Shown here: in pieces, positions 1,960-48,700 of the stretch
Position numbering within the stretch: the first letter of the stretch is position 1
How the letters are laid out: each line of letters begins with the position of its first letter
Assembly (NCBI GenBank): GCA_032622095.1
Contig: CP136066.1
Coordinates: 6,905,784-6,969,783, forward strand
Direction of reading: 5' to 3'
DNA length: 64,000 nt
Origin: Siphonodentalium dalli
Taxonomy: Eukaryota; Mollusca; Scaphopoda; Gadilida; Siphonodentaliidae
Position numbers and translations under genes: made by a program
Notes under the pieces: generated by a model
The model's database searches: none
Seen by the model: only the letters and a program-made list of their open reading frames with translations
What the model was told of the DNA's origin: nothing

Positions 1960-2332
1960 CCCTGTGCCAATGCATTCTCTTATATATGCGAGCGAGTCGA
2001 CCATAGGTCGCCTCGCATATATAAGAGAATGCATTGGCCTAACAATTTTTTATCATTTTTTTTTAAATAAATGTTTCTTACAATTTTTAGGACATAAAAT
2101 AAAAAACATCCATTACCCTGCAGGGAGCCCCATACATATATAGAAGCATATAGAAGAGTGTCGTCTGCTCATGCTTGTCTGGGGCTCTGTATGGGTGAAA
2201 TTATAAAATTGTTAAAGAATACAAGAACAAATTATTAAAATTGTAAAAAATTGTTAGGCCAATGCATTCTCTTATATATGCGAGGCGACCTATGGTCGAC
2301 TCGCATATATAAGAGAATGCATTGGCACAGGG
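1960..2332. mobile_element. Double-hairpin element, stand-alone copy
   Basis: Bounded by CCCTGTGCCAATGCATTC and its inverse. Each end is itself a near-perfect hairpin (about 32-base arms around GTCGACCATAGGTCG). The ends are separated by about 230 bases that include an AT-rich stretch with TTGTTAAAGAAT words and a segment with CCTGCAGGGAGCCCC. The flanks are TTTTTTTAC and GTAAAAAAA. The sequence to the right (2333-2385) matches, inverted, the left flank of the partial copy near 63.05 kb, so the parent element was larger. Confidence 0.75.
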
Positions 2333-2385
2333 TAAAAAAATCCCGACTTATGACTGGATTTGATATGGCGGTTCACATATGTTTT

Positions 2386-2762
2386 AGGCCCACTTAATTT
2401 CACGGTTATATATATACAAAATTTATATTCACAAATCCTTCCGATTTCATGTCCATTTTCTAGGGTTTACTTTCCTGATTACCGAACAGAAAACCATTCC
2501 CAGATTCATTAAATATTTTTTAAGTTACCTGCTTTCAAATAAACAAGTTTATCTGATTTCAGAACCTCAATTTCTCGAAATGAGCAAAATTCCACTCATA
2601 TTTCGGGGAAACTGACTCCAAATTTGAATAGTGGAATAATGGGGTATGGGAAATCATATCGACAAAAACTTGGAAAACGTGCATCTTGAAGCCCGAAGCT
2701 TTACTCTCAACAACTCGCAACTACTGCATACATTGTTATTTCCTTTTGAGTTATTGGCCTAA
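2386..2762. other. Unassigned intergenic stretch
   Basis: No open frame of note, no tandem repeat and no inverted repeat recognised. Confidence 0.35.
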
Positions 2763-2766
2763 TGTA

Positions 2767-2936
2767 CAGTAATGCTCTAATTAATCGACTCCTTAAACAC
2801 AGCAGAATTATGGGTAACTTTTCAGGATTTAGTCGGACATAGAGCTTTCCGAAGAATGGCAACAAGCCGACTAAATCCTGAAAAGTTACCCATAATTCTG
2901 CTGTGGTTAAGGAGTCGATTAATTAGAGCATTACTG
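2767..2936. mobile_element. Pogo/Tigger-like palindromic MITE
   Basis: 70-base arms (2767-2836 and 2867-2936) are almost perfectly complementary around a 30-base loop. The ends are CAGTAATGCTC, with TA on both sides (2765-2766, 2937-2938). TA duplication with a CAGT start is typical of Tc1/mariner/pogo MITEs. Confidence 0.8.
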
Positions 2937-2938
2937 TA

Positions 2939-3301
2939 CAAGCCTCATTATAGTGTGTCTGTCATTTGCAGAATGAGGTCCTCAGCGGGTGAATTTAGTG
3001 ACACTATCCCGCATAGTGGGCTAGCATCACTAAATTCACCCTCTGGGGACCTCATTCTGCTCAGGCCTCATAATAATGCAAATGCATAATCGAGGTTCCC
3101 AATGGGTGTACCATGCACAACACAATATTCACCATTTTGGAACATCAATCTATGTCTCTCATAGCAGATGAGGCCATGCAGATTGAGGTCCCAAAAGAGG
3201 GTGAATTTAGTGATGCTAGCCTGCTATGTGGGATAGCTTCACTAAATTCACCCGCTGAGGACCTCATTCTGCAAATGAGAGGCACACTAAACTCAGGCTT
3301 G
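2939..3301. mobile_element. Palindromic hAT-like MITE, copy C
   Basis: Ends CAAGCCTCATTATAGTGTG and ACTCAGGCTTG, with two internal hairpins and a GAGGTTCCCAATGGGTG variant block. The right duplication CTAATGTG (3302-3309) pairs with CTAATG-TA on the left once the pogo-like element at 2767-2936 is removed. Confidence 0.8.
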
Positions 3302-3502: not shown

Positions 3503-3959
3503 CAGGGAAAATAAGGTGCCTGTCATTTGCAGAATGAGGTCCCCAGAGGGTGAATTTAGTGACGCTATCCTGCATAGCGGGCTATCATCACTAAATTCAC
3601 CCTCTGGGGACCTCATTCTGCCTAGGCCTCATCTTCTCTGGAAAGTTTCTTTATTATCAAATTTCTATAGAAACTTCTTCACATTGATTCTATTTCTTTT
3701 TTAGTTAAGTTTCTCTAAATCCCCAAATTGGCAGACGACACATTGCATAATCGAGGTACCCAATGGGTGTACATCACAATATTCACCATTTGGGAACTTC
3801 AATCTGAGTCTATGTCTCCCATAGCAGATGAGGCCATGCAGAATGAGGTCCCCAGAGGGTGAATTTGGTGATGCTAGCCCACTGTGTGGGGTAGCATCAC
3901 TAAAATCACCCTCAGGGGACCTCTTCCTGCAAATGATGGGCAAACTATAATCAGACTTG
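3503..3959. mobile_element. Degenerate long member of the hAT-like MITE family
   Basis: Hairpin block at 3530-3621, a spacer with AGAAACTT words, then a second block at 3745-3930. The termini are eroded (AAGGTGCCTGTCATTTGC at the left, ATCAGACTTG at the right) and no target duplication can be read. Confidence 0.6.
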
Positions 3960-4079
3960 AAAGTTTGTTGAACTTATTACCTCCCCTTTTCCCCCCTCCC
4001 TCTAAATGAATAATAGACTATTCCAATGTATACATGTATGACTGAGTTAGAGAATCCATTTAGTATAGAAAGGGTTTAA

Positions 4080-4471
4080 CCCTTTACCCAACAAACCGGC
4101 CAAAAACGGCAAAATAAAGCTGCAAGACCCTAAATTATCTTGGGTCTGTCTCAATAAAACCATACAAATATGGATATCATTGGAACCGGCTCATTGACCA
4201 CATTGTGATGGTTACAGTTATGCCATGTGCCAATGCATTCTCTTATATATGCGAGTCGACCATAGGTCGCCTCGCATATATAAGAGAATGCATTGGCCTA
4301 AAAAAAATCTTTTTTTAACACTTTTTACCATTTTTTCTTACATTCTTTAACAATTTTATAATTTTTAATGTGTTAAGCCAATGCATTCTCTTATATATGC
4401 GAGGCGACCTATGGTCGACTCGCATATATAAGAGAATGCATTGGCACAGGGCCGTTCTGTTGGGTAAAGGG
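4080..4471. mobile_element. piggyBac-like MITE, subfamily I
   Basis: Ends CCCTTTACCCAACA and the inverse, with TTAA at 4076-4079 and 4472-4475. Subterminal GGCCAAAAACGG; the inside carries the two-hairpin cassette. TTAA duplication with CCCTTT ends is diagnostic for piggyBac-type elements. Confidence 0.85.
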
Positions 4472-4598
4472 TTAAATGACTCGTGATAAATTAGCTTATG
4501 ATCTCTTTACATTTTTACTGTTTAGTTCTTGAAATTTGCTATCACAAGTTTGTATGAACCTCAACTGAAACATATTGGAAAATTTGGACAATATTTAA

Positions 4599-4857
4599 CC
4601 CTATCATGATGGAAGTTGTGCTGGTGCAGCATTAAATATCCTGTGCCAGTGCATTCTCTATTATACATATGCAAGTCTCCCATAGGGAGCCTCGAATATA
4701 TAAGAGAATGTACTGGCTTACAAGATCAAGGTAAATATTGTTAGGCCAATGTATTCTCTTATATCTGCAAGGCTCCCTATTGGAGACTCTCATATATAAG
4801 AGAATGCATTGGCACAGGATTTTCGCAACATATCAGGAAGCTCCAGTTATGGAAGTG
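4599..4857. mobile_element. piggyBac-like MITE, subfamily III, old copy
   Basis: TTAA at 4595-4598 and 4858-4861. The left end is CCCTATCATGATGGAAG and the right end CCAGTTATGGAAGTG. Inside is a diverged hairpin pair (CTGTGCCAGTGCATTCTC) with CTCCC loops in place of GTCGACC. Confidence 0.65.
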
Positions 4858-5062
4858 TTAAAAGAGCATCACATGACATAGTTTCAACCAACCAAAATCC
4901 TGCATTCAAGTACCACAGCACGAAGGGATGCACGAGTATAAATATAATATATTGATAAAAGTTTGTGATATCATTTATTCCACACCTGCTGGCACGATGC
5001 ACATGTGTTCAACAGAACCACAGCCATTGATTATGTATCGTTGAATTACAACACATTGAATA

Positions 5063-5280: not shown

Positions 5281-5330
5281 TTGAACTTAAAACATGTGGT
5301 ACAGTGTGGTGTGAAATAAACACAGAACAC

Positions 5331-6159: not shown

Positions 6160-6965
6160 GTGCTGAAGCGGCCATTGTTACCACATATTGGTGTACTGGG
6201 TACCCAGCTTTAGGAAAAGGTGTTTTGGGTTACCAGCTTGATCTTTGTAATGTTGGAGCACACAGTTGTTAACCCTTTACCCAACAGAACGGCCCTGTGC
6301 CAATGCATTCTCTTATATATGCGAGTCGACCATAGGTCGCCTCGCATATATAAGAGAATGCATTGGCTTAACATATTAAAAATGATAAAATTGTCAAAGA
6401 ATGTAGAAAAATATTATAAAAATTGTTAAAAAATGTAAGAACAAATTATAAAATTGTTATAGAATGTAAGAAAAAATGGTAAAAAGTGTTTAAAAAAGAA
6501 TATTTTTAGGCCAATGCATTCTCTTATATATGCGAGGCGACCTATGGTCGACTCGCATATATAAGAGAATGCATTGGCACAGGGCATAACTGTAACTATC
6601 ACAATGTGGTCAAGGAGCCGGTTCCAATGATATCCATATTTGTATGGTTCTATTGAGACAGACCGAATATATTTTAGGCTGTTGAAGCTTTATTTGGGCG
6701 TTTTTGGCCGTTTTGTTGGGTAAAGGGTTAAATAAATATATAGCATGCTATCAAGTGGTGCACACTAATCTGTGACTAATAATTACTTTTTCTCGGCACT
6801 ATAATGTTATTATTTACGATAACATAATCATATAACATAAAACCACAAAGGTCAAGCTAGGTATGCAAAACACCTTTTCGTAAAGCTGGGTACACAACAC
6901 ATCAAAATGTGGCGACAATGGCCCCTTCAGCTATATTAGTCCATCATAAAGCATCTGTTCGATTC
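6160..6965. mobile_element. Foldback element between tRNA-like half sequences
   Basis: Arms at about 6160-6250 and 6850-6950 are inverted copies of each other (GTACCCAGCTTTA, AAAAGGTGTTTTG). The outer left flank has TAGCTCAGTTGGTAAG (A-box-like, 6128-6143) and the outer right flank TGTTCGATTCCCCG (B-box-like, about 6956-6969). The loop is filled by the piggyBac-like element at 6273-6727. Confidence 0.6.
6273..6727. mobile_element. piggyBac-like MITE, subfamily I
   Basis: CCCTTTACCCAACAGAACGG end and its inverse, with TTAA at 6269-6272 and 6728-6731. It carries the full two-hairpin cassette and a CAAGGAGCCGGTTCCAATGA subterminal block. Confidence 0.88.
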
Positions 6966-7308: not shown

Positions 7309-7754
7309 CAGGCAATAGTGTGTCTGTCATTAGCAGAATGAGGTAGGTCCCCAGAGGATGAATTTAGTGACGCTACCCAGCATAGCGGGCTAGCATCACT
7401 AAATTCACCCTCTGGGGACCTCATTCTGCTTAGGCCCTCAACTACTATGTTAGATCTAGGATCAGATCGAAGTTCCCCAGTTGAAGTTGGTGATGTTCAC
7501 CCATTGGGCACCTCAATTATGAATTTTATCTTCTGCAAATTAGGGGAATATAGAAACTTCCTAGAAGGGAAAACGTAACTAAAAACAATATTAATTTGAT
7601 ACTATAGATACTTCCCAGAAGATGAGGCCTAAGCAGAATGAGGTCTCCATAGGGTGAATTTGGTGATGCTAACCCGCTGTGCGGGATAGCATCACTCGAT
7701 TCACCCTCTGGGGACCTCATTCTGCAAATGACAGACACACTATTTGCAGGTTTG
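7309..7754. mobile_element. hAT-like MITE, diverged
   Basis: Two hairpin blocks of the GAGGTCCCCAGAG family at 7335-7430 and 7630-7725, with a spacer holding GAAGTTCCCCAGTTGAAG. The ends are CAGGCAATAGTGTG and TATTTGCAGGTTTG; the target duplication is not clear. Confidence 0.6.
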
Positions 7755-7763
7755 AGTGATTAA

Positions 7764-7845
7764 CCCTTTCAGTTAAGCTGATGCAGCATTATAGATCCTG
7801 TGGCAGTGCATTCTCTTATAAGAAAATGCACTGGCTTACAAGTCA
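7764..7845. mobile_element. piggyBac-like MITE remnant, subfamily III
   Basis: TTAA then CCCTTTCAGTTAAGCTG and half a diverged hairpin (GTGGCAGTGCATTCTCTTAT). The right end is missing. Confidence 0.5.
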
Positions 7846-7934
7846 ATATCGTATAATCGCTATACATTTTTCTATCACGGTAAATGATCGATCATTTTAA
7901 CGACAGATTAATCACGGACATGTCAGATGATTAA

Positions 7935-8303
7935 CCCTTTACCCAACAGAAGGACCCTGTGCCAATGCATTCTCTTATATATGCGAGTCGACCATAGGTC
8001 GCCTCGCATATATAAGAGAATGCATTGGCTTAACACATTAAAAATTATAAAATTGTTAAAGAATGTAAGAAAAAATGGTTAAAAAAATATTTTTTTTAGG
8101 CCAATGCATTCTCTTATATATGGTCGACTCGCATATATAAGAGAATGCATTGGCACAGGGCATAACTGTAACTATCACAATGTGGTCAAGGAGCCGGTTC
8201 CAATGATATCCATATTTGTATGGTTCTATTGAGACAGACCGAAGATATTTTAGGCTGTTGAAGCTTTATTTGGCCGGTTTTGGCCGGTTTGTTGGGTAAA
8301 GGG
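7935..8303. mobile_element. piggyBac-like MITE, subfamily I, in a palindrome centre
   Basis: TTAA at 7931-7934 and 8304-8307. It carries a two-hairpin cassette with a truncated right hairpin. It sits, with the next element, at the symmetry centre of foldback X. Confidence 0.87.
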
Positions 8304-8307
8304 TTAA

Positions 8308-8470
8308 CCCTTCCATTACTGGAGGTTCTTGAAATTTTGCGAAAACCCTGTGCCAATATATTCTCTTATATACATGTATGTGAGGCTCCCTATGGGAGCC
8401 TCGTATATATAAGAGAATACATTGGCACAGGGTTTTCGCAAAATTTCAGGAAGCTCCAGTAATGGAAGGG
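8308..8470. mobile_element. piggyBac-like MITE, subfamily III (163 bp)
   Basis: Ends CCCTTCCATTACTGGAG and its inverse. TTAA at 8304-8307 is shared with the previous element and repeated at 8471-8474. It contains one hairpin with CTCCCTATGGGAG as its tip. Confidence 0.87.
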
Positions 8471-8831
8471 TTAATCATCTGACATGTCCGTGATTAATCT
8501 GTCGTCAAAATGATCGATCATTTACCGTGATAGAAAAAGGTATAGCGATTATATGATCGTTTAATGTATTATTAGTGCAACAAATCAAATATAAATCTTG
8601 TTGCTTTGACATTTAACGGACATCTGATATATGCATGTCTGAAATCATGCTTTGGAAAGGCTGCCCTCTTTGTTCATATATGCAATGCTTCCATTTGACC
8701 TAAATCGAAGACAAACGAGCAAGAGAAGTCCTGCCCATGATTCTGGGCATAAAGTATGTTAAAGAAGAGTAATGGGATGGGACTCAGTCTAAAACAGCAT
8801 CAACCCAATCGATATCCCAAGCTGTTGTGGA

Positions 8832-9520: not shown

Positions 9521-9545
9521 CACGTAAATGTTATATTTTGTTTAA

Positions 9546-9906
9546 CCCTTTACCCAACAGAACGGCCCTGTGCCAATGCATTCTCTTATATATGCGAGTC
9601 GACCATAGGTCGCCTCGCATATATAAGAGAATGCATTGGCTTAACACATATTAAAAATGATAAAATTGTCAAAGAATGTAGAAAAATATTATAAAAATAT
9701 TATAAAAAATGTAAGAAAAAATTATATAAAATTGTTAAAGAATGTAAGAAAAAATGGTAAAAAGTGTTAAAAAAAGATTTTTTTTAGGCCAATGCATTCT
9801 CTTATATATGCGAGGCGACCTATGGTCGACTCGCATATATAAGAGAATGCATTGGCACAGGGCATAACTGTAACCATCACAATGTGGTCAATGAACCGGT
9901 AAAGGG
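9546..9906. mobile_element. piggyBac-like MITE, subfamily I
   Basis: TTAA at 9542-9545 and 9907-9910, with the full two-hairpin cassette. The right subterminal block is cut short: GAACCGG joins TAAAGGG directly. Confidence 0.85.
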
Positions 9907-10074
9907 TTAATATTATAATGACTCACGATTTCTTCATAGTTCAAACACAGTGGAAAGCCTGCAAAGTTGCCATTTCCACACAGAAATTATCCCCCTTTAA
10001 TAGCATTCCCGATCATTTCATCCATGGATTTTGATCAGATAATGAATAAAAATTCTGTTTCTTCCAAGAATGGA

Positions 10075-10990
10075 TATAGTGTTTCTGACATTTGCAGAAT
10101 GAGGTCCCCAGAGGGTGAATTTACTGATGCTACCTCGCACAGCATGCTAACATCATCAAAATCAACTGCCAAAATGGTTAAAGTCGCCTGCCACAATGGT
10201 TAAAATCACTGACAAAAATAGATTCTATATTGTGCTTGGAAAAGTAGATTATACCATAAAATGTTCTAGATTTGGAAAAGATGTGTATACCATAAAATTT
10301 TCTAGATTTGGAAAAGAAGTTTAACCCTTTCAGTGCCAGGGGCCGATCTCATCGGCCCTAATTTACGGTCTGTAAAATCGGCCCTAAAAAAATAGAATTT
10401 TTTTTTTTTTGGGTTGAATTTTTTTTGGGTATGCTTAAGCATGCTATAGCGGATATAAAAACAAACTGGATAAAACCTTAGGGGCATGTTATAACTCAAA
10501 ACTATCACCAAGTATTCATAATAATAATTTTGATGCCCATGAAAAACGTAAGATTCCCTGGCACTAAACCTACAAAATAAGAATATAAGAACAAATTATT
10601 AAAATTGTAAAAAATAACAAATGATGAAAAATTGTTAGGCCAATGCATTCTCTTATATATGCGAGGCGACCTATGGTCGACTCGCATATATAAGAGAATG
10701 CATTGGCACAGGGTATATGGGTTGATACAAAAATCAGACCTGGCACTGAAAGGGTTAAACCATAAAATGTTCTAGATACTGATGTCTGGAATTCTTTTGG
10801 GAAAATATGAATTAGAATTGCCCAAGAACATTTAATTTACTGTATTAATATTTGACATTTTATGCTGTGTTTTAAGGAACTCGGGGCCTTCGAAGTGGGT
10901 TCATGTGTTGTAACATAAATTGTATAAAAGTCAGTAATACAACTCATTAATCCTTTCAACCCTGACGTCCTGAACATTAAATGGTCCACA
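10075..10990. repeat. Composite repeat with few 36-bp monomers, copy 1
   Basis: A hAT-like hairpin remnant (10095-10150), about three monomers of the ACCATAAAATGTTCTAGATT type, then GATACTGATGTCTGGAATT and a tail with GCCCAAGAACATTTAATTTA. The same order recurs at 37387-39070 with about 25 monomers. It is interrupted by the element at 10325-10754. Confidence 0.7.
10325..10754. mobile_element. piggyBac-like MITE, subfamily II
   Basis: Left end CCCTTTCAGTGCCAGG with GGGCCGATCTCATCGGCCC just inside; the right end CCTGGCACTGAAAGGG is its inverse. TTAA at 10321-10324 and 10755-10758. It contains the right half of the hairpin cassette and inserted into a 36-bp monomer. Confidence 0.87.
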
Positions 10991-11740: not shown

Positions 11741-11744
11741 TTAA

Positions 11745-12144
11745 CCCTTTACCCAACAGAACGGCCCTGTGCCAATGCATTCTCTTATATATGCGAGTAG
11801 ACCATAGGTCGCCTCGCATATATAAGAGAATGCATTGGCTTAACATATTAAAAATGATAAAATTGTCAAAGAATGTAGAAAAATATTAGAAAAATTGTTA
11901 AAAAATGTAAGAAAAAATTATAAAATTGTTAAAGAATGTAAGAAAAAATGGTAAAAAGTGTTTTAGGCCAATGCATTCTCTTATATATGCGAGGCACAGG
12001 GCATAACTGTAACCATCATAATGTGGTCGATGAACCAGTTCCAATGATATCCATATTTGTATGGTGTTATTGAGACAGACCGAAGATATTTTAGGCTGTT
12101 GTAGCTTTATTTGGGCGTTTTTGGCCGTTATGTTGGGTAAAGGG
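11745..12144. mobile_element. piggyBac-like MITE, subfamily I
   Basis: TTAA at 11741-11744 and 12145-12148. The left hairpin is complete; the right hairpin is cut after its first arm (GCGAGGCACAGGG). Confidence 0.85.
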
Positions 12145-12483
12145 TTAAGAATCGCAGGTAGAAATATATCTGCAAATAATGAAATTTTGCATATCAAGAG
12201 CATTGAAAAATATTTGAACTTACTATACTATCAGTGACTAGTTTTATTTACATAATGGTTTCAACATGTGAATATTTTTCTTTAGTTGTGATGTTTTAAC
12301 AGACTTCTCTATTTCTTGCCCATTTGTCTACTGTGTGCCTTGGGTTCCTGTCATTCTGGGCTTTCCACAGTATCAATGTCAAAACTTAATCTATATATCT
12401 CTCTTCCTGCTATATTTTCAGAATGTTTTCACGTCATCAGATATGGCTGATCCTAAATTCAACTGTAATATAGTACTATATAG

Positions 12484-12645: not shown

Positions 12646-12659
12646 TATTTATTCTACAC

Positions 12660-13780: not shown

Positions 13781-14880
13781 ATGTTTAGTCATGTATTGCA
13801 TTATTTAATACCATTCGAAGCTAGGCCTCTCATGGGTTAGTCATGTATTTAATACCATTAGAAGCTAGGCCTCTCATGGGTTAGTCATGTATTTAATACC
13901 ATTCGAAGCTAGGCCTCTCATGGGTTAGTCATGTATTTAATACCAATCAAAGCTAGGCCTCTCATGGGTTAGTCATGTATTTAATACCAACAAAGCTAGG
14001 CCTCTCATGGGTTAGTCATGTATTTAATACCATTCGAAGCTAGGCCTCTCATGGGTTAGTCATGTATTTAATACCATTCGAAGCTAGGCCTCATGGGTTA
14101 GTCATGTATTTAATACCAATCAAAGCTAGGCCTCTCATGGGTTAGTCATGTATTTAATACCATTCAAAGCTAGGCCTCTCATGGGTTAGTCATGTATTTA
14201 ATACCATTCGAAGCTAGGCCTCTCATGGGTTAGTCATGTATTTAATACCATTCGAAGCTAGGCCTCTCATGGGTTAGTCATGTATTTAATACCATTCGAA
14301 GCTAGGCCTCTCATGGGTTAGTCATGTATTTAATACCATTCGAAGCTAGGCCTCTCATGGGTTAGTCATGTATTTAATACCATTCGAAGCTAGGCCTCTC
14401 ATGGGTTAGTCATGTATTTAATACCATTCGAAGCTAGGCCTCTCATGGGTTAGTCATGTATTTAATACCATTCGAAGCTAGGCCTCTCATGGGTTAGTCA
14501 TGTATTTAATACCATTCGAAGCTAGGCCTCTCATGGGTTAGTCATGTATTTAATACTAATCAAAGCTAGGCCTCATGGGTTAGTCATGTATTTAATACCA
14601 TTCGAAGCTAGGCCTCTCATGGGTTAGTCATGTATTTAATACCATTCGAAGCTAGGCCTCATGGGTTAGTCATGTATTTAATACCAATCAAAGCTAGGCC
14701 TCTCATGGGTTAGTCATGTATTTAATACCAATCAAAGCTAGGCCTCTCATGGGTTAGTCATGTATTTAATACCATTCGAAGCTAGGCCTCTCATGGGTTA
14801 GTCATGTATTTAATACCATTCAAAGCTAGGCCTCTCATGGGTTAGTCATGTATTTAATACCATTCGAAGCTAGGCCTCTC
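13781..14880. repeat. 44-bp minisatellite, about 25 copies
   Basis: The unit contains GGGTTAGTCATGTATTTAAT and ACCATTCGAAGCTAGGCCTC. Several units lack the TCTC step before the next GGG, making 40- and 42-bp variants. The array continues at 14881-15060 as degenerate units near 68 bp with GGTGATTCAGTCT. Confidence 0.93.
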
Positions 14881-21000: not shown

Positions 21001-21146
21001 TGTATTTAACCTTTCCATATATATAACACATTGGCCTAACAATATTTACCCATCGCCTTGTAAGCCATGCATTCTCTTAATATATGCGAGGCTCCCCAAA
21101 GGTGTTCTTTACTCACTACAATGGTTTTATAAATGGGTAGCATAAT

Positions 21147-33748: not shown

Positions 33749-36700
33749 CTGTTAAAGCAGAGCAAATATAAATAGTTAGATTAAAGGTTTTGCCAGGGCA
33801 GGGACAAGGATATAGATCGTTTCCGTTGTGTGGTGGAGGGGGGAGGGGCGGTTCCAACTTAGAATTTCCAACTGCACCTCCCTCCCTTGAACAAGACCAA
33901 AAACAAAATGATAAAAAATGATAACATTGTTAAAGAATGTGAGAAAAAATGATAAAAATTGTTAAAGAATATTAGAAAAATTAAAAAAACAGATAATTTT
34001 TTTTTTTAAATGTAAGAAAAATTTATAAAAAATGATAAACAATTGTTAGGCCAATGCATTCTCTTATAAATGTGAGGCGACCTATGGTCGACTCGCATAT
34101 ATAAGCATGCAGTGGCACAGGGTCTTTAATGTTTGTCCAATATAAAAAAATTACCTTGATTTACATCCCATCCCGACCCTATGTTTAATCCCCTCCTCAA
34201 TTTTGTTTTTATTTGGGTATCATTTATATAAACTTTTTTCTCATGCCTTAACCCTCAAATTACATTTGAATGACCCATTAATCAGTCTATTTTGATCAAA
34301 TTGACATCTAAATCAAGTTGTATTATATAAGATAGGATATTGCTCCAATATCTAAAACTGTCCATGACCAACAATTTATTTATATTGGCCTTGGGAAGTC
34401 CACACACCCATTCTTGTCTCAACTTCTCTCTGTTAACCCTTTCAGTGCCAAGTCCGATTTTTGTATCAACCCATATTTCCTTGATCATTTTTCAAATTTA
34501 TTGATTATAATAACTGAAAGGGTTAAAGCAGAGCAAATATAATTAATTAGCTTCAAGATTTCCCCAGGTCAGGGACAATGACAAATTCTGTGATATTCTG
34601 TGGATATTCATCATTTACTCTGAGAAACCAACATTACCCCTTTTATGCCATAATTATCATAATTGCAATTAGAGGATGCTGTCTGGTCTGCCCCCCCCCC
34701 CCCACTCCCCCAATACCAATGTGACCACAATAGAAATGAAAGTGTCAATGACACTGTAGCTCAACTTAGGTAGGGGAATAATTTAATGGTTGACAGTAAA
34801 TGGAGGAATAGGAAACGTTTTTTTTTATATAATTTTTATTTCTTTTTGTTACAATTTGTCATAATGTAATATATAAGGCCAAAAGGAAGAATACCTGAGT
34901 TTAGGGTAACATGAAGGAAAAAAACAGAGGCGGGCGGGCGGTACTTCATTTTATTTTATTTTTTCATTTTATTTTTCACGGGGGATAGTATTTAAGTATT
35001 CGTGCCTTCTAATCATCTGCCAGTGTCACTCGTATAAAGCTTCGGCAAGTCATTGTCACACTAATCAATGTCATGGTAGCTTTAATCAGTTTAATGGTGT
35101 TACAGAAGTTCAATGACATGTATACAGCATGATATTAAATGATATTATATATAGAACTAGAAGGTGACCCGACTTCGTCCGGGCTTTGACCTTGAATTAA
35201 ACCATTTTGAAGGTCAAGGTCAGTTCGGGGTCACAATTTGACCCGTCGAAAACACTCCCCCGATAAAAGTATCCGTAGGTATCAAATTTCGTCGAAATCC
35301 GTTAATTGTTTAATTTATTTTGAGTTAATTCTGCCTTTTTAATCAAGAGACATGATGGTAGCCGTCCCGTGATGGTACCCGTCCCTAAAATAGGTACGTT
35401 TGTGGGTACCCGTTTCAAGGTGAAGATCACCTCGGGCGGAAAGCCCTAAGTACGTCACACAACACGCTCATGTCTGGATGCAGTCATACACGCACACGCC
35501 CAGATGTAATAATCACATTACACACATACGCTCTTTATCGACGACACTGCGGATACGAACGCTCTTTAACTATCAACGCGATTAACCCCACCGTGCCAAT
35601 GGCGGTAATTTTTGTGACTGGGGGTGGAGAATGGGTGCTCTGACGTTCTCAGAAGCGATGCGATGCCACTTCATCTGGTATTTTACCCTTAGATAGGAAG
35701 TTTGGGCTCAATCCGTCCGGCAGTTTTCGAGTTCATCGCGATCACACACACACATATCTTCCAAAATATATAATAGATAAGTGTCTAGTGTTGGAAATTA
35801 AACAGTTTATGTTCACGCTGAAGCTCGGATAAGACGGATATTACAGGCCAAATCCTACGAGTGGACATATTACTGTTCAATTTCCCACACAAGACACTTA
35901 TGATATTTTGTTTATCCACCGACTCGAATACTAAGAAATTTTGCGAAATATTCAACTCAGAAGGTGAATTTAACAAGAGTTCCTCCATTGGAAATGGCAC
36001 ATACATGCGGCAAGGCGAACGTGACGTACAGAATTATTTTTAATCTGACATTTTATTACTATGTCTTTTTCTGTCAGTTCAGAATCCGTGTGGTACCGAT
36101 TCACGCACGACAACATGTCTGTGCTATAGTTGACAGGCGCCATGTTTCTATTCTGATTCATATGAACGCATTTGTGAAGTTTAATAGCTAAAACGCAGGA
36201 TCTATCGCACACGGAAGTGTTTCCGCCATATTCAATCGGCAAAATATCCGGTTACTTTCGATTTGCTAGTTAATACATATCGCGTGTTTTCTGGTTTCCG
36301 CTTTCGAGAAATCGGCGAGGTTTGCCGAACAATGACGAGGGAATACGAATATACTACAACAACAATGGCAGCACTTCCGTTTTTCGTGAATTGACGATAT
36401 TTGCAAGGAAATGGTTTACATGAAGTCGGAGGAAATTTTTGAAAAACGATAAAATGGAATTTGGCGGCAGGTTTTGAGTAGGGGCGGGCGGGTTACCATA
36501 AACACAGGTATTCTTCGTTTTGGCCTAATGGATATAACAAAAACAATGGCGTCACAGTGCACAGTTGCTCTTATCCTGGCAAATTTCATGAACATCCAAC
36601 CAAAGCTACGACCTGTAGCCCGCGCCAAAGGATTTAGTCATGCAAAGAGTAAAATCAAAAAAGGATGTTTTTTGGCCGAATGACCCCAAAATGACTCGTT

Positions 36701-39700
36701 CCCATCTACATGTCAATGTCAACATTCATGACAAATTTCATAAAGATTAGACCAAAGGTACGACCTGTAGCCCGCACCAAAGGAAATTGTTGACGGACAC
36801 ACAGACAGACGGACGCCAACCCATGGCAATAGCTCAAACTTACAAAGTAAGTTGAGCTAATAAATGGTTGTTAGACTGTTTTTTATGCTATCCCGATGGG
36901 TTTTGGTCACCTGATAGCCTCGGACAACCTCATTACAGAGCCAATTCTATAGTAAAACCTGTGACATTTATATTTACACATATATTGCCATATGTACATG
37001 TACCGGTATGCTACATGTAACTCAACTTTACTACACTACACATTGTTCTCGATATATCATATTTTTTCTAAAAGCTGGCTCTTGCAATTGTCATTTTATT
37101 TGTATTGTTGTCTGTTGTTATGGTTATTCAAAGACCATTAAAAGTATCTTATCTTAAGGATAAGCTCAGGGTTTCTGTTAGATGGGGGGTGAATATTTCC
37201 AAAATCTACACCCCCTCTTGTGCTTGAATTTTCCAACTAGTACCTCAAGATTTCCATACGTGGGAAAATTTCAATCTGATAGTATTGGATAATTGTTCAA
37301 CATTTGGAAATCATGAGGTGACAAGTGATTGGAGGTCACTAGTTCAAAAAACTTTTGGTCTGAAAACATCCCAGTAACTACGTTATCAAGTCTGGATATA
37401 GTGTGTCTGACATTTGCAGAATGAGGTCCCCGGAGGGTTAATTTAGTGACACTATCCTGCACTGCAGGCTAGCATCACCAAATTCACCCTCTGGGGACCT
37501 CAATCTGCTTAAGCCTCAACTATTATGGGAGACCTAGGATCAGATTGAAGTTCCCCAGTTGAAGTTGGTGATGTTCACCCATTAGTTACCTCGATTATGC
37601 ATTTTATCTTTTTAAAATTAAGGGATATAAAAACTGAAGAGAAGGGAAGAGTAACTAAAAACATTGTTAATTTGAGACTATAGATACTTCCCAGAAGATG
37701 AGGCCTAAGCAGAATGAGGTCGCCACATGGTGAATTTGATGATGCTAGTCCACTGTGCGGGAAATTCTGGAATTATCACACACTATATCCAGGCTTCTAT
37801 TTGACAATATTCCAAGAGTTCAAAACCAGATCCCAAAGATTTCCATTGTTACAAATTCAGATGTTCCGAAATGACCTGCCGAAATTCAGATGTTCCGAAA
37901 TCACCTGCTGAAATTCAGATGTTCCAAAATCACCTGCCGAAGTTCAGATGTTCCGAAATGGCTAACATTTCGGGAAAAGTAGATTCTATAGAATGCTTGG
38001 TAAAGAAAGAAGTTTACTCCATAAAATGTTCTAGATTCGGAAAAGATGTTTAGTCCATAAAATGTTCTAGATTCGGAAAAGATGTTTAGTCCATAAAATG
38101 TTCTAGATTCGGAAAAGATATTTAGTCCATAAAATGTTCTAGATTCGGAAAAGATGTTTAGTCCATAAAATGTTCTAGATTCGGAAAAGATGTTTAGTCC
38201 ATAAAATGTTCTAGATTCGGAAAAGATATTTAGTCCATAAAATGTTCTAGATTCGGAAAAGATGTTTAGTCCATAAAATGTTCTAGATTCGGAAAAGATG
38301 TGTATACCATAAAATGTTCTAGATTCGGAAAAGATGTGTACACCATAAAATGTTCTAGATTCGGAAAAGATGTTTAGTCCATAAAATGTTCTAGATTCGG
38401 AAAAGATGTTTAGTCCATAAAATGTTCTAGATTCGGAAAAGATATTTAGTCCATAAAATGTTCTAGATTCGGAAAAGATGTTTAGTCCATAAAATGTTCT
38501 AGATTCGGAAAAGATGTGTATACCATAAAATGTTCTAGATTCGGAAAAGATGTGTACACCATAAAATGTTCTAGATTCGGAAAAGATGTTTAGTCCATAA
38601 AATGTTCTAGATTCGGAAAAGATGTTTAGTCCATAAAATGTTCTAGATTCGGAAAAGATATTTAGTCCATAAAATGTTCTAGATTCGGAAAAGATGTTTA
38701 GTCCATAAAATGTTCTAGATTCGGAAAAGATGTGTATACCATAAAATGTTCTAGATTCGGAAAAGATGTGTACACCATAAAATGTTCTAGATTCGGAAAA
38801 GATGTTTAGTCCATAAAATGTTCTAGATTCGGAAAAGATGTGTATACCATAAAATGTTCTAGATTCGGAAAAGATGTGTATACCATAAAATGTTCTAGAT
38901 ACTGATGTCTGGAATTTTTTTGGGGGACAAATTTTATTAGGCTGTTTTTCTCATCGATTTCTTTTCTATGTATAAATTTCTATGTATAATTGCCCAAGAA
39001 CATTTAATTTACTGGCCGTGACATTTTATGCTGTGTTTCAATGGACTCAAGGCTTTTAAAGAGATCGTTATCCAGACTTGATGTTCACACATAAGATTAC
39101 CTCAGTTTGTTTTCTTCGGCCTCTCGATCACGATCTGGGAGAAAACTTGTATCAACATTTGGGTTTTTACCTGTGAATAAATGAACATTTACTAGTAACA
39201 GAATATTGTGCAATGAAAAGGTGAGTACATATATACCTGTAGAACCAGGGAATGGAATAAATGGTGAAGTGAATATAGGTAATTGCTAAACAATTTAATA
39301 TTTCCTTGAGCATGTTGCTACCGACTGCATATTGTTAACCCTTACATGATGGGAGCTGTGCTGGTGCAGCATTAAAGATCCTGTGCCAGTGCATTCTCGT
39401 ATATATGCGAGTCTCCCATAGGTCAATTGCTGATGTGTTTGTGGGTGCATCGGCATGTGGTACATGTAAAAATGTTGAATCATAGTGACAGGACAATCAC
39501 TCACAGTGCAACCTGGCAATCACTCAGACGGCGACCGGACAATCCAGGCTTCTTAACGGTACCAGTACCGGTAACGCAACCATCAGTACTTGGACAATTT
39601 CCATGGTACTGGTACTGAGTGTACAGCGGTACACAGTACTAGGCAGTACTCAAATTATTAGTCTATATACGTTTGTTTAAGCAATGAATAACTTGATTTA

Positions 39701-42700
39701 GATGTTATTTGCAGTGTTAACAAAACCAAATTTCAACCAGTTTGTTATTGCTAAATAAATGGTGCTTGTATACATATTGTGACAATATTCACATAGAAGC
39801 AAACGTGATTTGCAACTTGCCCTGACCAAAACGGAAGGCAATAGGATCTATCGGTAGATGCAAAAAGTACTTATTTTGTCGCAAAGTTGGATAATTTAAA
39901 TTATGCACATCGTCTGCATATATCATCGGGTGCCACGGTAACCTCCACCCAACGTGACTAATTAGCGACGCTTCTATGAGTGTTGAAACATACACATACT
40001 GTGACTGTGACCTAAACATAAAAGACAATTACAAATCACCAATCGCTGACTGAGCAACAGGTCATGATACACGTGGCCTTGACTGACAGCATGTGCTGTA
40101 ACTGCAGCTGAATCAATGTTGAGGGGATATATCATGTATCATTTCTGTACTTCAAAGACACCAAATGATCAATCTGTAACGGACATGCACCATTCCTCGA
40201 GGCTCGATTTGATATGTTGTAATAAGTTAACCCTTTACCCGACAGAACGGCCCTGTGCCAATGCTTCTCTTATATATGCGAGTCGACCATAGGTTGCCTC
40301 GCATATATAAGAGAATACATTGGCTTAACATATTAAAAATGATAAAATTGTCAAAGAATGTAGAAAAATATTATAAAAATTGTTAAGAACTGTAAGAAAA
40401 AATTATAAAATTGTTAAAGAATGTAAGAAAAAATGGTAAAAAGAGAATGCATTGGCACAGGGCATAACTGTGACCATCACAATGTGGTCAATGAACCGGT
40501 TCCAATGATATCCATATTTGTATGGTGTTATTGAGACAGACCAAATATATTTTAGGCTGTTGAAGCTTTATTTGGGCGTTTTTGGCCGTTTTGTTGGGTA
40601 AAGGGTTAAATGATTGATCAATACAGACAGCTTTAGATGTCCATTATTGTATTATATTTATTTCAATAGGATTCCATAATCACAATTTTAATAGTCAGTG
40701 AACCTGTGTTTGTGAATATAAACTGCTCATCATTAATATGTTCAAAGTTGAGGAAGCTTTTTCAACCGCTTTGTAAAAATACCAAAGCAGAAAAGCTTAC
40801 CGACCTGCCAACCATCTTGAATCTTCGCTACATATCATATTCATACATAGGAACAACGTTGCCTGTTACCATTTTGGATATAAGATCAATTACATTTATG
40901 GCGACTATGATCACTCAGTGAGGATACACAGCGGAGTGGTTGCATGAACTCACAGTACAAATAAAAAAAATATATAATAATTATGACATAAATAAAATAC
41001 ACCCATAGTAGTCGAGAGCACCAAATATACCCCACTCGTGATATTGTGGATTTAATCACCCACCAAAAGGCTCATGGTTAACCCATTGAGTGCCAGGGGC
41101 CGATCTCATCGGCCCTAAACATACAAAATAAGTCTGTTAAAGAATATAAGAATAAATTATTAAAATTGTAAAAAAAATAAAAAAAATTGTTAGGCCAATG
41201 CATTCTCTTATATATGCGAGGCGACCTATGGTCGACTCGCATATATAAGAGAATGCATTGGCACAGGGTATATGGGTTGATACAAAAATCGACCTGGCAC
41301 TCAAAGGGTTAAAACCACAATTCCACGTGTAGTGAAAACTCGGTACTCTGAGCTATTATGGGTGTATTCTATATGATCCAATCTACTCATCAAATAGTTA
41401 AATATAATGAATTTGATGATGCTGCTTACCAAATCTTTTCTTTTTCATCACAGATGTCGTCGGCACCATTTGAGCATACCCCTCCTCCTCTTCTTCTTCT
41501 TCTGCCTCCTCCTCCTCTACCCCCTCATCCTCCTCACCGTCGTCTTCATTCGGATTGAATGATAGATTCGCAATCTGAATATCAGATGTTTTAAGATAAT
41601 GTTTTAAAGGGGGACTGTACCCTAAATTTGACCATTTATGGGACCATCTCCTTTTATACTCAACAGAATGTAACAAATAATGATAAAAAAAAATGATAAA
41701 AATTGTTAAAATAGATTGTAAGAAATCATGATAAAAATGATAAAAATTGTTAAAGAATATAAAAAAAAACAAATAATAAAAAAATGATAAAAATTGTTAA
41801 AGAATGTAAGAAAAATTGATAAAAAAATATAAAATTTTGTTAGGCCAATGCATTCTCTTATATATGCGAGGCGACATATGGTCGAAACAACATGGCAATT
41901 ATAATGAAAATGAATTTATGACTCCAGCCATTTATTCATTTTCATTATAATTACCATGTTATTTGATCGTTCATAGAGCACACAAGAGTATTTTGCACTA
42001 ATCCATGGCTCAAATTCATTCACTTGTTCATAAATGGCCGGATTTAGTGTACAGTCCCCCTATTTAAACATTTTTATTGAGAGAAAAAAACAGCAAATGA
42101 TTGAAATAAATAAGTGACAAAATACAATTTTCCTGATTTCAATAATATAAATTATAATGTATTCAAGCCTTCAAATAGTATGTCTGCCATTTGCAGAATG
42201 AGGTCCCCAGTGGGCTAGCATCACCAAATTCACCCTCTGGGAACCTCATTCTGATCAGGCCTCATCTTCTGGGAAGTATCTATAATCTATAGTTTCAAAG
42301 CAACATTGTTTTCAGTTAATATTTCCCTTCTGTTCAGTTTCTATATCCCCTAATTTGCAGAAGATAAAATGCATAATCGAGGTGACTAACAGGTGAATAT
42401 CACCAACTTCAATTGCGGAACTTCAATCTGATCCTAGATCTCCCATAACAGTTGAGGCCTAAGCAGAATAATGTCCCCAAAGGGTGACTTTGGTGATGCT
42501 AGCCCACTCTGTGGCGAAGAATCACTAAATTCATCTTTATTCAGAAAATGTCAAACAGACTATTTCAAGTCTTGAATGTTACAACATAATTCAGCAGTTG
42601 ATATTATAAGTTACAGTGTTTCCAATAGAGTGATAAAAGTCTCGGCGGGACCAATACCATCCGTTGTGAAGCGGAGTGTTGTATTGTTGTGAAGCGGAGT

Positions 42701-45700
42701 GTTGTATTGTTGTGAAGCGGAGTGTTGTATTGTTGTGAAGCGGAGTGTTGTATTGTTGTGAAGCGGAGTGTTGTATTGTTGTGAAGCGGAGTGTTGTATT
42801 GTTGTGAAGCGGAGTGTTGTATTGTTGTGAAGCGGAGTGTTGTATTGTTGTGAAGCGGAGTGTTGTATTGTTGCCGCCGAGCTTTATATCATGGTGGAGA
42901 CACATAAAGGTATTCACCATGTCAACAATTCTAACCAATTGGAAATAATTCCCCACATGCGAGTGTGCTTGCTGAATGTCAAACATTAAGTTTTGAACAA
43001 ATGGCTTCACATTAAATCTGATATATTCGGGTTTATCGATGTGACTTTACATACTATGTATATACATGTACTCATAAAATGACAAAGACTGCCAAAACTA
43101 ATTGCAAACTGTCAAAATTAAAAACTACATGTTAAAAGTACAAACATGAAGATTGTTTGAATTATTCACAGATTTTTTCCATTTCTTATTTACAGTTTCA
43201 GTAAAAAAAAAGTTGTTGGTGGGTTGGTAAATTGGTGTCGGCTTAGCCAATCAATTTCTCAAAAATAAATGAACTATCGTACAATTTTGTCAATGTTTTT
43301 AGTGCTTGTAAATTATCAGATGCTGAATTTAAGTTAGACACCTGTGACTCAGATTAATATATTATAAAGAAATGCAGAAATATGACTGATGAAAGTTAAT
43401 GTTTCTTTTTAGATGAAATTCTTATTGTGACCAACAAATATCTTCTGCTGATATTTTCAGCCTATAGTATTTACCAACAATAGTAAAATTGAGATGGTAT
43501 TAAAAAAATGTTGATTCTTGATTACAGTGTCATGATGATTACAGTTCACACTTACCAGGTCAGGCACATCCTGAATTCCACTATTATAGTGGTATTCCAC
43601 TATTTTGTGGTATATGACTATAACATATTCATATTTCCTTTATTTGCGTCAGGAATAGAAGAGGACGCATTCCAGTGCACAGCCAAATGTCACTCTTAAC
43701 AATATCGCAGCGAATGAACAGTCTTCCGACAAAATTTGTTGTGCAATCTTTTGCGCCAGCTTCGTTATTCAATAATATTATATTATTACTTATATATGTC
43801 TATCTATATGACAATAACGTGATGACTCAATCGTTCCTTCATAACAACATTTCAACTAATTGCATGCTAATTGAGTTGTGCCATCATGATAAATCATTCT
43901 CCTGGACAAAATATATGTATGATACAGAATTAGTGCGAAGATGATTCTGAATAATATTTTTGTGAAATATGATTTTGGATTATCCCTCTTTTATCAAATT
44001 AACAAAATGGTAATGGGCATATACCACTATAATAGTGGAATTCAGGATGTGTCTGACCCGCTCACACTCACACCTGTCTCCTCTGAAAAAGTTTTATGAT
44101 ATACTAGCTGTGGTACCTGGCATTGCTCGGGTAAAGATTAGAAACGAAGTGTTTTAACAAGCACTTACTCAATTTCAAAGAACTTATATATTCACCGCAT
44201 TGGTGGTCTTCCCTTCTGCTACATGGATGAAGAGGTTTTGCTATTATCGAATGCTTGAGGACCTGTTGAACTAGTCCTGATATGGAATGGATAAAGAGCG
44301 TTATGGTCGCTTATGCTATTCGAGGCAATGTCTGACATTGAGTGCGGTCTCTGTGGAGACTAGTGATAAAGAGCGTTCACTGTCGATCTATTCCTGATAT
44401 GGTAAGAATAAAGAGCGTTCTGCTCGCTTATGTGCAGCAACTTGTTAACAACATTCCGTGCGAAGTCTCAGCTGGACTTTTTTAAGGTAGGGCCCTGCGA
44501 ATTGGAAATTCGGCAACCGAATTGAATCTCAAATCGAATCGGGTGTCTGATGTCGACATCGACATTTAATCCGAATCGATTGGAGAAAAATCACAGCCCT
44601 CTTAATTCAGATTGTTTAGCTTCTGCAATCTGCTACAGCAACCCTTTATCGTGGACCAGTTTGCTTCAGCAAATTGCTTTGGCATTGATTCCCGTAACCA
44701 ATTATGATGGCTGAAAATCATAGCTGACATCGGATATCCATCTAATTATTATTCACTTATTTGTCATAAAAGCTGAGACTTTTTCCAAATATGAAACAAA
44801 GAATGAAGACAGATTTGAAAGACAAACATTTTGCGACTCAGACTGACATCGTTCTCAGCATTATTTTTGAACGAAAATTAAAACTGTATATCACTTAGTC
44901 TAACATGTGAAATATATGCAATCTAAAGATTTCTAAGCAGACCTTGACACCGACTATAAAATGAATAATTACTACTGAAAATACACTACTCGACTACTCC
45001 AGCAGTGAGTATATATATAATATAGCATTTCTTAATTTGATATCACCAATGACTAAGACTGTATATTACAAGGATTTCAGGACTGATATATGTTGTATCA
45101 TAAACAATGGCATGCATATCGATGTGCATGACCTGCCGCATCAGTACCCGGATGGCTACTTATAATAATGTATTCCGTTTGATGGGCGGTAACTCTATAT
45201 AATCATCATGTGTGTTCATCCTTGAATTTAATAAAATATTGCGATACCTGGCTTTCTTGTATTTATTATTATTATTATTAACATTTGTAGAGCGCCTATT
45301 TCACTACAGAGTTGTGTTCATAGGCGCTGGTACATAAAATATCTGATAAAATATATATACAATAAAAGATCATCATACTATAGGATAAAAGAGAAAACAC
45401 GCGGATAAAATAAGTCTAAGAGATGGCAAATCCTAAAAAATCACAGATATAAATTAATGGTTAAAAAAGTCATTTGAAGAGAAACTCCAGATAAAGTCAG
45501 ATAAAATTTCAGTTGAGTCCATAAGCTATTTTAAAAAGATGTGTCTTTAAAAGTTTACGGAATTCTAAACGATCATCCGTAAGCCTCAGAGCCTCCGGGA
45601 GTTTGTTCCACAACTTTGGAGCTGTGACAGAGAAGGCTCTGTCCCCTAACGTAGGATGGTTTGAGTTAGGAAGTGTTAGAAATCTCTTCCCGTCTGATCT

Positions 45701-48700
45701 TCGCTGCATCGTACCTGAAGTCTTTAAACATACTAGCTCTTTGATGTATTCGGGCGCTGTTCCTTCAAGAGCACGAAATGTGATCAATATGATCTTTGAA
45801 TTTGATCCTGTATTGGATGGGCAGCCAGTGGAGATTTTGCAAGACTGGACTCATCTCTGTCCTTCTCGGTACCCTCGCAACAATTCTAGCAGCAGTTTTG
45901 CTGCTCACAAGTGACTGGATAATTGATTTAGTTGCCGAAACTGTCAAGTATTTTCTTATTTTACCAATATTTCTCAAATGATAATTACATGCTCGACATA
46001 CATTATTTACATGAGCGTCCATAGACATGTTGGTATCGAACCCGAGGTTGCAATGGATTCACTTGACATGATGGAATTGGAATCGATCTTAATAAGAAGA
46101 GGAGAATCAAGTTTTGTAAATCTGAAAGCGTTTATGTGAGGGACCAGAGTAACATGTTAATATATGTGGATCGTTGGACATTAACAGTGTGGAGGAATAT
46201 AAATGTATTAATATTCACTTAATATTCAACAATCTGATCTCGACACCGAATCAAATCTTCGAAGCTTCGTCAATGGGACCTATCTAGTAAGATTCCCCGG
46301 GTAAAATTACCACTATAACAAATAATCAGCTTCGAGGGTCTGTCAATGGTCCATCCGTTTGGTCGCCTACAGCCAGACAAACAAACGAACAAACAGAATT
46401 GAGTTTTATTAGTATAGATCATGCACTCGCACCCATCTCCTGTGAAGCAGTTTTATGATATATCATACCTTCATTTTTTCTCTTTTTTTCTTGTCTTGTT
46501 TCTGTTTTTCAAGCAGTCTTGCCTCGGCAACTTTTTTAGCAAGTTGTTTTTCTCGTTCATTAATTACATGTTCCTGTTTGGCTTTCATCTCATCTAGCGT
46601 AACCAATCCTGGAACAAACACAAAAACAAACTTTAACCCTTTGAGTGCCAGGGGCCGATCTCATCGGCCCTAAACCTACGAAATAAGTCTGTTAAAGAAT
46701 ATAAGAATAAATTATTAAAATTGTATAAAAAAAAAAAAATTAAAAAAAAAAAAGGTTAGGCCAATGCATTCTCTTATATATGCGAGGCGACCTATGGTCG
46801 ACTCGCATATATAAGAGAATGCATTGGCACAGGGTATATGGGTTGATACAAAAAACAACCTGGCACTCAAAGGGTTAATATTGTTCCTGAATGGTATCTT
46901 CCATTCAGTCCTAAAAGTAAGCAGTGAACTTTCATACATTGTACTTGTTACATGTTTTCAGTTATACTATTACTGCAGGCGATGGAGATATTATACTATT
47001 ACTGCAGGCGATGGAGATATTATACTATTACTGCAGGCGATGGAGATATTATACTATTACTGCAGGCGATGGAGATATTAGTTATACTATTACTGCAGGC
47101 GATGGAGATATTATACTATTACTGCAGGCGATGGAGATATCAGTTATACTATTACTGCAGGCGATGGAGATATTATACTATTACTGCAGGCGATGGAGAT
47201 ATTATACTATTACTGCAGGCGATGGAGATATTATACTATTACTGCAGGCGATGGAGATATTAGATTATTACTGCAGGCGATGGAGATATTATACTATTAC
47301 TGCAGGCGATGGAGATATCAGTTATACTATTACTGCAGGCGATGGAGATATTATACTATTACTGCAGGCGATGGAGATATTATACTATTACTGCAGGCGA
47401 TGGAGATATTATACTATTACTGCAGGCGATGGAGATATTATACTATTACTGCAGGCGATGGAGATATTAGATTATTACTGCAGGCGATGGAGATATTAGA
47501 TATACTATTACTGCAGGCGATGGAGATATTAGATTATTACTGCAGGCGATGGAGATATTAGATATACTATTACTGCAGGCGACGGAGATATTAGATTATT
47601 ACTGCAGGCGATGGAGATATTAGATTATTACTGCAGGCGATGGAGATATTAGATATACTATTACTGCAGGCGATGGAGATATTATATATACTATTACTGC
47701 AGGCGATGGAGATATTAGTTATACCATTACTGCAGGCGATGGAGATATTAGTTATACTATTACTGCAGGCGATGGAGATATTAGTTATACTATTACTGCA
47801 GGCGATGGAGATATTAGTTATACTATTACTGCAGGCGATGGAGATATTAGTTATACTATTACTGCAGGCGATGGAGATATTAGATTATGACTGCAGGCGA
47901 TGGAGATATTAGTTATACTATTACTGCAGGCGATGGAGATATTAGATTATTACTGCAGGCGATGGAGATATTAGTTATACTATTACTGCAGGCGATGGAG
48001 ATATTAGTTATACTATTACTGCAGGCGATGGAGATATTAGTTATACTATTACTGCAGGCGCGATGGAGATATTAGTTATACTATTACTGCAGGCGATGGA
48101 GATATTAGTTATACTATTACTGCAGGCGCGATGGAGATATTAGTTATACTATTACTGCAGGCGATGGAGATATTAGTTATACTATTACTGCAGGCGATGG
48201 AGATATTAGATATATTTATTACTGCAGGCGATGGAGATATTAGATATAATAATTTATTACTGCAGGCAATGGAGATATTAGATATATTAATTTATTACTG
48301 CAGGCGATGGAGATATTAGATATAATAATTTATTACTGCAGGCGATGGAGATATTAGATATATTAATTTTCAGCCTATCATTTACTTTTCAAATTCTCAA
48401 CACTAACTGGGTCATTCGTAGTTAATAAGACTCTTATAGAGTTGTGTAGCCTTCAGAGCTGTTGGTCCGTATGCATTGACATGATACATTGTCTGTGTTT
48501 AACAATTCACACAGGAGCGTATATTGTGTTATAACTCAGGCTTCCGATTAATAATTCACACGGGAGCGTATATTGTGTTATAACTCAGGCTTCCGATTAA
48601 TAATTCACACGGGAGCGTATATTGTGTTATAACTCAGGCTTCAGATTAATAATTCACACGGGAGCGTATATTGTGTTATAACTCAGGCTTCAGATTAATA

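Follow-up and report, generated by a model that had tools for sequence, protein, structure and literature searches.

A twin-hairpin core shared by several TTAA-type MITE families of Siphonodentalium dalli, perhaps a captured passenger

Using a combination of analyses (copy searches, edge alignments, folding, stem-pairing and four-gamete tests) of a 64-kb stretch of the Siphonodentalium dalli contig CP136066.1 (hereafter the window, to which all copy counts refer), we studied a cassette of two inverted hairpins separated by an AT-rich spacer. On balance, and with some caution, we favour the proposal that several TTAA-type (piggyBac-like) miniature inverted-repeat transposable elements (MITEs) share this cassette as their palindromic core, and that it was once discrete, was captured and is now a passenger. 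The observations behind this proposal are a precise edge, outer TTAA ends, no target duplication of the cassette itself, slowly changing hairpins and conflicts between markers. By what route non-autonomous transposons acquire new ends or interiors is still debated, and the base-precise junctions, the end without the core and the internal markers present here allow capture, exchange and selection to be told apart with a single assembly of the genome.

The cassette consists of CCCTGT, a 69-bp hairpin (arms of 33 bp each, loop of 3 bases), an AT-rich spacer, the inverted hairpin and ACAGGG, and measures at least 181 bp when both hairpins are present. Its tip, CCCTGTGCCAATGCATTC, is matched 24 times in the window with at most 3 mismatches (0.03 expected). 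Together with the broken right hairpin at 11967-12001, this makes 25 outer ends, 23 of which carry (C/T)CCTGTGCC, the ends at 4223 and 7796 being one base off. They correspond to 24 hairpins, the lone hairpin of 8304-8474 bearing an outer end on both sides, and two more pieces (41837-41885 and, near 21034-21110, a degraded one of type B) have no outer end. The cassette hairpins, of which the word CCCTGTGCC is the mark, come as type A (stem CGACC), which accompanies the outer ends of families I and II, type V and the orphans, and as type B (stem CTCCC), which accompanies family III; these stems and the differences between left and right spacers serve as markers within the core. Twelve of the 22 folded copies, distributed across families I, II and type V, are letter-identical (the folding set omits the broken copies 39379 and 40462). 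As single-strand DNA, the two type-A hairpins tested fold with −36.3 and −38.7 kcal/mol (z about −15), and the two type-B hairpins with −17.1 and −32.8 kcal/mol (z −5.3 and −10.7). In most copies the spacer repeats every 31-33 bp; periods of 22 and 47 bp were called as well. No match to the hairpin was found in Rfam at gathering thresholds, or for its exact 27-mers in viral and prokaryotic contig collections, the latter having little bearing on animals.

These findings partly agree with an earlier note on this DNA, made from its letters, which had described a module with an AT-rich spacer and ends folding as hairpins (borne out for type A by the folding energies), half copies at 34040 and 41840 (both present) and a diverged form in subfamily III (the type-B hairpins). 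Its statement that the module occurs in several families holds for family I and, in diverged form, for family III, and has to be amended for family II, which has the right half only (spacer and one hairpin). The copies at 11967-12001 and about 21034-21110 come in addition to those it listed.

Evidence for a discrete unit comes from the cassette edge, which we aligned in eight outer contexts, each with one representative (the two ends of I, of III and of type V, a single end of II, and the orphan at 34122). Inside the edge, the mean pairwise identity over the first 33 bases is 0.896, with bases 2 to 10 the same in all eight contexts. Outside, over 40 bp, it is 0.277, as compared to 0.263 (sd 0.015) for random sets of eight 40-bp stretches of the window, 395 of 2000 of which reach the observed value. 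The nearest five outside bases are somewhat more alike (0.407), partly because the type V flanks share ATTTTTTTA and the base preceding the edge is A (6/8) or G (2/8). Such a sharp edge next to unrelated outer sequence implies that the cassette behaves as a discrete unit, and it is the constant boundary with changing flanks by which the earlier note had proposed to recognise one. The same note had named the opposite case, in which all copies would be deletion or divergence products of one piggyBac-like ancestor whose outer parts diverged. That TTAACCC-type tips are common to the TTAA families and that central deletions are frequent would suit this explanation, yet we regard it as very improbable, since the mean identity drops from about 0.9 to the chance level within a single base, with a core that is often letter-identical, where divergence would grade, and since deletion cannot swap outer sequence at a fixed base so that unrelated ends reach it. 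Simple divergence from one ancestor was rejected on account of the sharp edge.

Two other identities of the cassette were considered and rejected. It is not a piggyBac element itself, as none of the 25 outer ends has TTAA beside the edge. With an A as the preceding base in six of the eight contexts, we also considered that the cassette might have inserted between A and T, as a Helitron would. Helitrons have TC at one end and CTRR at the other, and these tips do not occur here as a pair: TC is present at four of the 25 ends, and the sequence at the opposite ends is CAGGG or CAGGA (CATGG at 4223, on the reverse strand).

The outer ends of the host elements are of the TTAA type. On the basis of TTAACCCT-type ends we delimited 12 elements, of which one is cassette-free, and all 12 have TTAA at both ends (that of 41078-41312 counting the T just before its first base), which is partly so by construction, the paired inverted repeats being independent of it; no such pair of TTAA ends was identified for type V, the orphans and three fragments. 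The terminal repeats are CCCTTTACCCAACAGAACGG for family I (starting with CCCTTTACCC), CCCTTT(C/G)AGTGCCAGG for family II (starting with CCCTTT(C/G)AGTGCC), and CCCTTCCATTACTGGAG and CCCTATCATGATGGAAG for family III (starting with CCCTTCCAT and CCCTATCAT). All start with CC(C/T)T, except for the left end of 41078 (CCCATT) and the right end of 4595-4861 (CACT). What had been called subfamily III looks like a single family with two unlike ends, complete at 4595-4861, and both ends of 8304-8474 are of the right type. The outer TTAA end and the cassette edge are 24, 147 (48 in 9542-9910), 44-45, 42, and 44 or 36 bp apart. The family I element 7931-8307 and the family III element 8304-8474 lie back to back with one TTAA in common, in palindromic sequence whose arms (7848-7939 and 8466-8557) meet at this TTAA, as expected of TTAA-targeting insertion. 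The palindromic sequence 7848-8557 has arms of about 90 bp and a TTAA centre occupied by two TTAA MITEs.

No direct target duplication was found at the edges of eight of the nine cassettes with both sides known, these nine representing four junction types; at the ninth (1960-2332), where the earlier note had recommended looking for one, the only candidate is a 2-bp TA. This copy is not the stand-alone cassette it was taken for, either. The 34 bases on its right recur, with one difference, at 63061-63094, and this repeated flank is joined to the left half cassette at 63095 and to the right half at 1960. It may be a terminal repeat present on both sides, or the interior may have been flipped by recombination between the inverted hairpins; with either origin, the 1960 copy belongs to a larger repeat, which we call type V, and is not a free cassette. 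The left 60 bases of this copy have short matches only in the window (best E 0.039). Among the candidates for copies at unrelated single-copy sites, the right flank of the 1960 copy is repeated, the 34040 copy has one outer end and the 41840 copy none. Concerning the interior of type V, a 111-bp insert lies in mid-cassette (2090-2200 and 63220-63331, 96% identical); by eye, it is less AT-rich than the spacer and forms an imperfect inverted repeat. A short imperfect palindrome (86%) at 41889-41960 starts at most 4 bp from the cut-off of the 41840 hairpin.

These data bear on the alternative that the cassette is an independent foldback transposon, which would still insert itself, possibly without duplication, and would have entered TTAA elements repeatedly, sometimes in mid-palindrome. 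Such an element would account for the inverted ends that fold on themselves, the constant base-precise edge in eight contexts, the A (or G) that precedes the edge, and the outer flanks that are inverted-symmetric right up to the edge at 8304-8474 (12 of 12 bases tested) and 1960-2332 (9 bases). We nevertheless find this alternative unlikely for the following reasons. First, a direct duplication is absent at eight of nine cassettes. Second, the only supposed stand-alone copy has a repeated flank. Third, the symmetry at the edge is equally expected of a MITE whose long terminal repeats enclose a filler. Fourth, the six family I copies share one junction per side, that is, one event. The foldback transposon offered by the earlier note is thereby weakened, and independent mobility is not supported by the copies in the window. 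Less likely still is a variant in which the cassette would be a still-mobile foldback element of a new kind, with fixed CCCTGTG/CACAGGG ends, inserting without duplication and preferring palindrome centres (e.g., the tip of an extruded cruciform).

One end also occurs without the core. The cassette-free 34433-34526 element carries the right end of family II (44 bp at 95% identity), and the match halts at CCCATAT, one base before the cassette edge. Forty bases of its interior were compared, and the best match in the window is 11 bases long (E 0.37). Judged by its sequence, this element fits the proposal that the family II end once existed apart from the core.

The hairpins change more slowly than their surroundings. 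In the six family I copies, which were picked via their terminal repeats so that hairpin quality played no part, non-consensus letters amount to 4/792 in the hairpins (75 bp each, tip included), 17/676 in the spacer (p 0.0015 versus hairpins), 31/783 in the right flank (Fisher p 1.4e-6) and 3/144 in the left terminal inverted repeat (TIR). As letters are not independent by descent, we also counted changes per column, which are 4/150 in the hairpins, 14/142 in the spacer (p 0.014), 22/147 in the right flank (p 1.5e-4) and 3/24 in the TIR. The gapless columns of the three family II copies gave 0/75 in the hairpin, 3/44 in the right flank and 10/62 in the spacer, and those of the two type V copies gave 0/75 in the hairpin (one with a 4-bp insertion) and 4/161 in the remainder. 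For family I, the view that hairpin arms are better preserved than the spacer is upheld, and the difference from the flank is larger still. In each copy the hairpin and the flank arrived at the same time, so that age cannot be the whole reason why the hairpins change slowly.

Hairpins also break. Three of the six right hairpins of family I are broken by deletions and, among the seven broken hairpins, those at 39379, 41840, 12001 and 8160 break at most 8 bp from the centre (by script), that at 21067 likewise (by eye), that at 7796 has lost its centre and that at 40462 one arm and the centre; these counts of central breakpoints are given without a chance model. Stem substitutions were found in none of the eight near-full type-A hairpins belonging to intact pairs (I4076, I6269, I9542 and V1960), and in three of the eight without an intact partner (counted by eye, and too few to tie substitution to the loss of the partner).

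Stem pairing was examined in an alignment of 19 of the 24 hairpins (12 distinct rows, the five broken ones being omitted), against a structure derived from one of the aligned hairpins, which favours the pairing result. Four stem pairs are changed on both sides (shuffle mean 1.8; reached by 25 of 500 shuffles), as compared to 0 to 1 in slid controls. The two-sided changes occupy 8 cells and the covariation score is 0.097, neither of which was reached by any of the 500 shuffles. The 10 further pair types are not exceptional (148 of 500 shuffles).

Slow change and two-sided changes are what one would expect if, as the earlier note also envisaged, the palindrome were a structural end under selection, i.e., a site for transposase binding or synapsis, shared for that reason by the TTAA families. 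In families I, II and type V no other part changes as slowly as the hairpins, and the piggyBac and piggyBat transposases bind shorter subterminal palindromes via paired C-terminal domains (PMC11707139, for the part of that article available to us). By analogy with these transposases, a role of the hairpin in transposition is plausible. Several points are at odds with a selected end, namely the TTAA-bounded elements lacking a hairpin at one end (family II) or altogether (34433-34526), the variable distance from TTAA to the edge (24 to 147 bp), the unexceptional further pair types, and the size of the binding palindromes, which the accessible part of the same article gives as just 14-19 bp (PMC11707139). 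Selection on such an end is accordingly a minority possibility in our judgement, of more weight than the foldback transposon; a strictly required hairpin is contradicted by the family II end and by 34433-34526.

Evidence for exchange comes from the family I copies, in which the four-gamete test gave 20 conflicts among 11 informative sites. Nine of the 20 span the right hairpin and oppose spacer to right-flank markers: three spacer markers unite 4076 with 7931, and the right-flank markers 329, 346 and 382 unite 6269 with 7931. On sequence grounds, these conflicts indicate exchange between family I copies.

From these lines of evidence we propose the following pathway for the captured core. The core would at first have been a free DNA piece with the fixed ends CCCTGTG...CACAGGG, probably a small transposon itself. 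Different TTAA elements would then have taken it up between their ends, perhaps because the repair of an excision gap used it as filler. From then on it would have moved as a passenger, a putative transposase cutting the outer TTAA ends, so that the core made no target duplication of its own. Exchange between copies, possibly along with selection for the pairing structure, may have held the hairpins near-identical.

Several points weigh against this proposal. The capture step is not seen among the copies of the window, and 34433-34526, the sole empty relative, could be a deletion product. The type V and orphan copies have no identified TTAA ends, and no transposase was found among the six open reading frames of the window that were tested. 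Of the 20 four-gamete conflicts, 11 fall within the right flank, so that exchange looks general and not centred on the hairpin, and alone leaves the uniformity of the hairpins unexplained; moreover, some of the conflicts among six copies could reflect repeated mutation. Lastly, 18 of the 19 aligned hairpins retain a T/C stem mismatch (8346 is the exception, by eye), which speaks against arm-to-arm correction, rejected here as the main homogeniser.

Table 1. Cassette-bearing elements and other repeats in the window.
Feature	Position	Strand	Basis
Family I TTAA MITE, complete, both hairpins intact	4076-4475	-	TTAA and TIR at both ends, alignment
Family I TTAA MITE, complete, both hairpins intact	6269-6731	+	TTAA/TIR ends, alignment
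Family I TTAA MITE, 14-bp central deletion in right hairpin	7931-8307	+	ends, alignment
Family I TTAA MITE, both hairpins intact, right flank shorter via internal deletion	9542-9910	+	ends, alignment
Family I TTAA MITE, right hairpin broken (11967-12001)	11741-12148	+	ends, alignment
Family I TTAA MITE, right hairpin mostly deleted	40227-40609	+	ends, alignment
Family II TTAA MITE, long form, spacer and right hairpin only	10321-10758	+	
Family II TTAA MITE, short form, right hairpin only	41078-41312	+	
Family II TTAA MITE, short form, right hairpin only	46633-46878	+	
94-bp TTAA MITE, family II right end in reverse orientation, no cassette	34433-34526	+	
Family III TTAA MITE, two type-B hairpins, short spacer, left end unlike right	4595-4861	+	
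Family III palindromic form, single type-B hairpin centred in 42-bp outer arms	8304-8474	+	
Family III left-end fragment, hairpin centrally deleted	7760-7845 (right limit approximate, by eye)	+	
Family III left-end fragment, hairpin broken 3-4 bp beyond centre	39335-39422	+	
Degraded type-B piece, inner spacer and half hairpin	21034-21110 (limits by eye)	+	
Type V cassette: left hairpin (4-bp insertion), AT spacer, 111-bp unique insert, AT spacer, right hairpin	1960-2332	+	
Right flank of 1960 copy, 34 bp, repeat of 63061-63094	2333-2366	+	
Type V outer flank and left half cassette, ends within unique insert	63061-63332	+	
Orphan half cassette: AT spacer and one diverged hairpin, CACAGGG outer end	33901-34122	+	
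Orphan half cassette: AT spacer and hairpin cut 7 bp beyond centre	41665-41885	+	
Copies of the GCAGAATGAGGTCCCCAGAGGGTGAATTTAGTGATGCTA palindrome	476-730, 1363-1543, 2925-3078, 3509-3637, 3838-3959, 7340-7410, 7617-7745, 37400-37489		

As regards the neighbourhood, the window contains a second long-palindrome repeat, unrelated to the cassette, with arms GCAGAATGAGGTCCCCAGAGGGTGAATTTAGTGATGCTA and many copies, some of them paired as adjacent hairpins. Long minisatellite arrays with periods of 33-51 bp occupy 46960-48362, 48653-50564, 52239-53210, 38006-38900 and 13802-14880. On the minus strand, 33241-33777 contains the C-terminal exon of a XAP5/FAM50 gene (Pfam E 1.7e-56), and we tentatively take 51456-51875, which has no Pfam match, to be its N-terminal exon; if the gene indeed spans 33241-51875 on the minus strand, five of the TTAA elements or fragments would be intronic.

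Foldback (FB-type) transposons have inverted ends that fold on themselves and internal tandem repeats. The cassette has both features as well, and differs from them in having no clear duplication at its edge and in the location of its tandem repeats between the hairpins. A mixed origin of ends and centre, together with exchange between copies, recalls Galileo (P superfamily) of Drosophila mojavensis, whose chimeric copies, which draw their ends and their centre from different subfamilies, are attributed to exchange in the available part of the report (PMC3573991). From the same part, Galileo differs in its superfamily, its 7-bp duplications and its long, internally repetitive terminal repeats (PMC3573991). 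Similarly to the cassette hairpins, the palindromes of piggyBac and piggyBat are located just inside the ends of TTAA transposons; as described in the accessible text, they are protein-binding sites of 14-19 bp, whereas the cassette hairpins measure 69 bp and are missing from one family II end (PMC11707139).

The closest published case that we found is that of the coral CMITE families I-VI of Acropora (Wang et al. 2010), a precedent by analogy for a shared core. According to the part of that paper at hand, CMITEs have TTAA duplications, family-specific terminal repeats and a length of about 100 bp, with a 75-bp interior that is more conserved than the ends and a core the origin of which the authors leave unexplained there (PMC2872659). 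Our elements resemble them in having differing TIRs around a conserved interior, and TTAA ends; they differ in having two long hairpins around an AT-rich repeat, the CMITE core not being described as a hairpin in that part of the paper (PMC2872659). The printed 60-bp coral consensus, compared by eye and without alignment, looks unlike the cassette hairpin (PMC2872659). Among the listed titles and abstract beginnings of open-licence PMC papers, we noticed no further twin-hairpin core common to families of TTAA MITEs. Together, these comparisons indicate that mix-and-match TTAA MITEs with a shared core were already known in corals, and that what is new here is a long and unusually well-kept twin-hairpin core.

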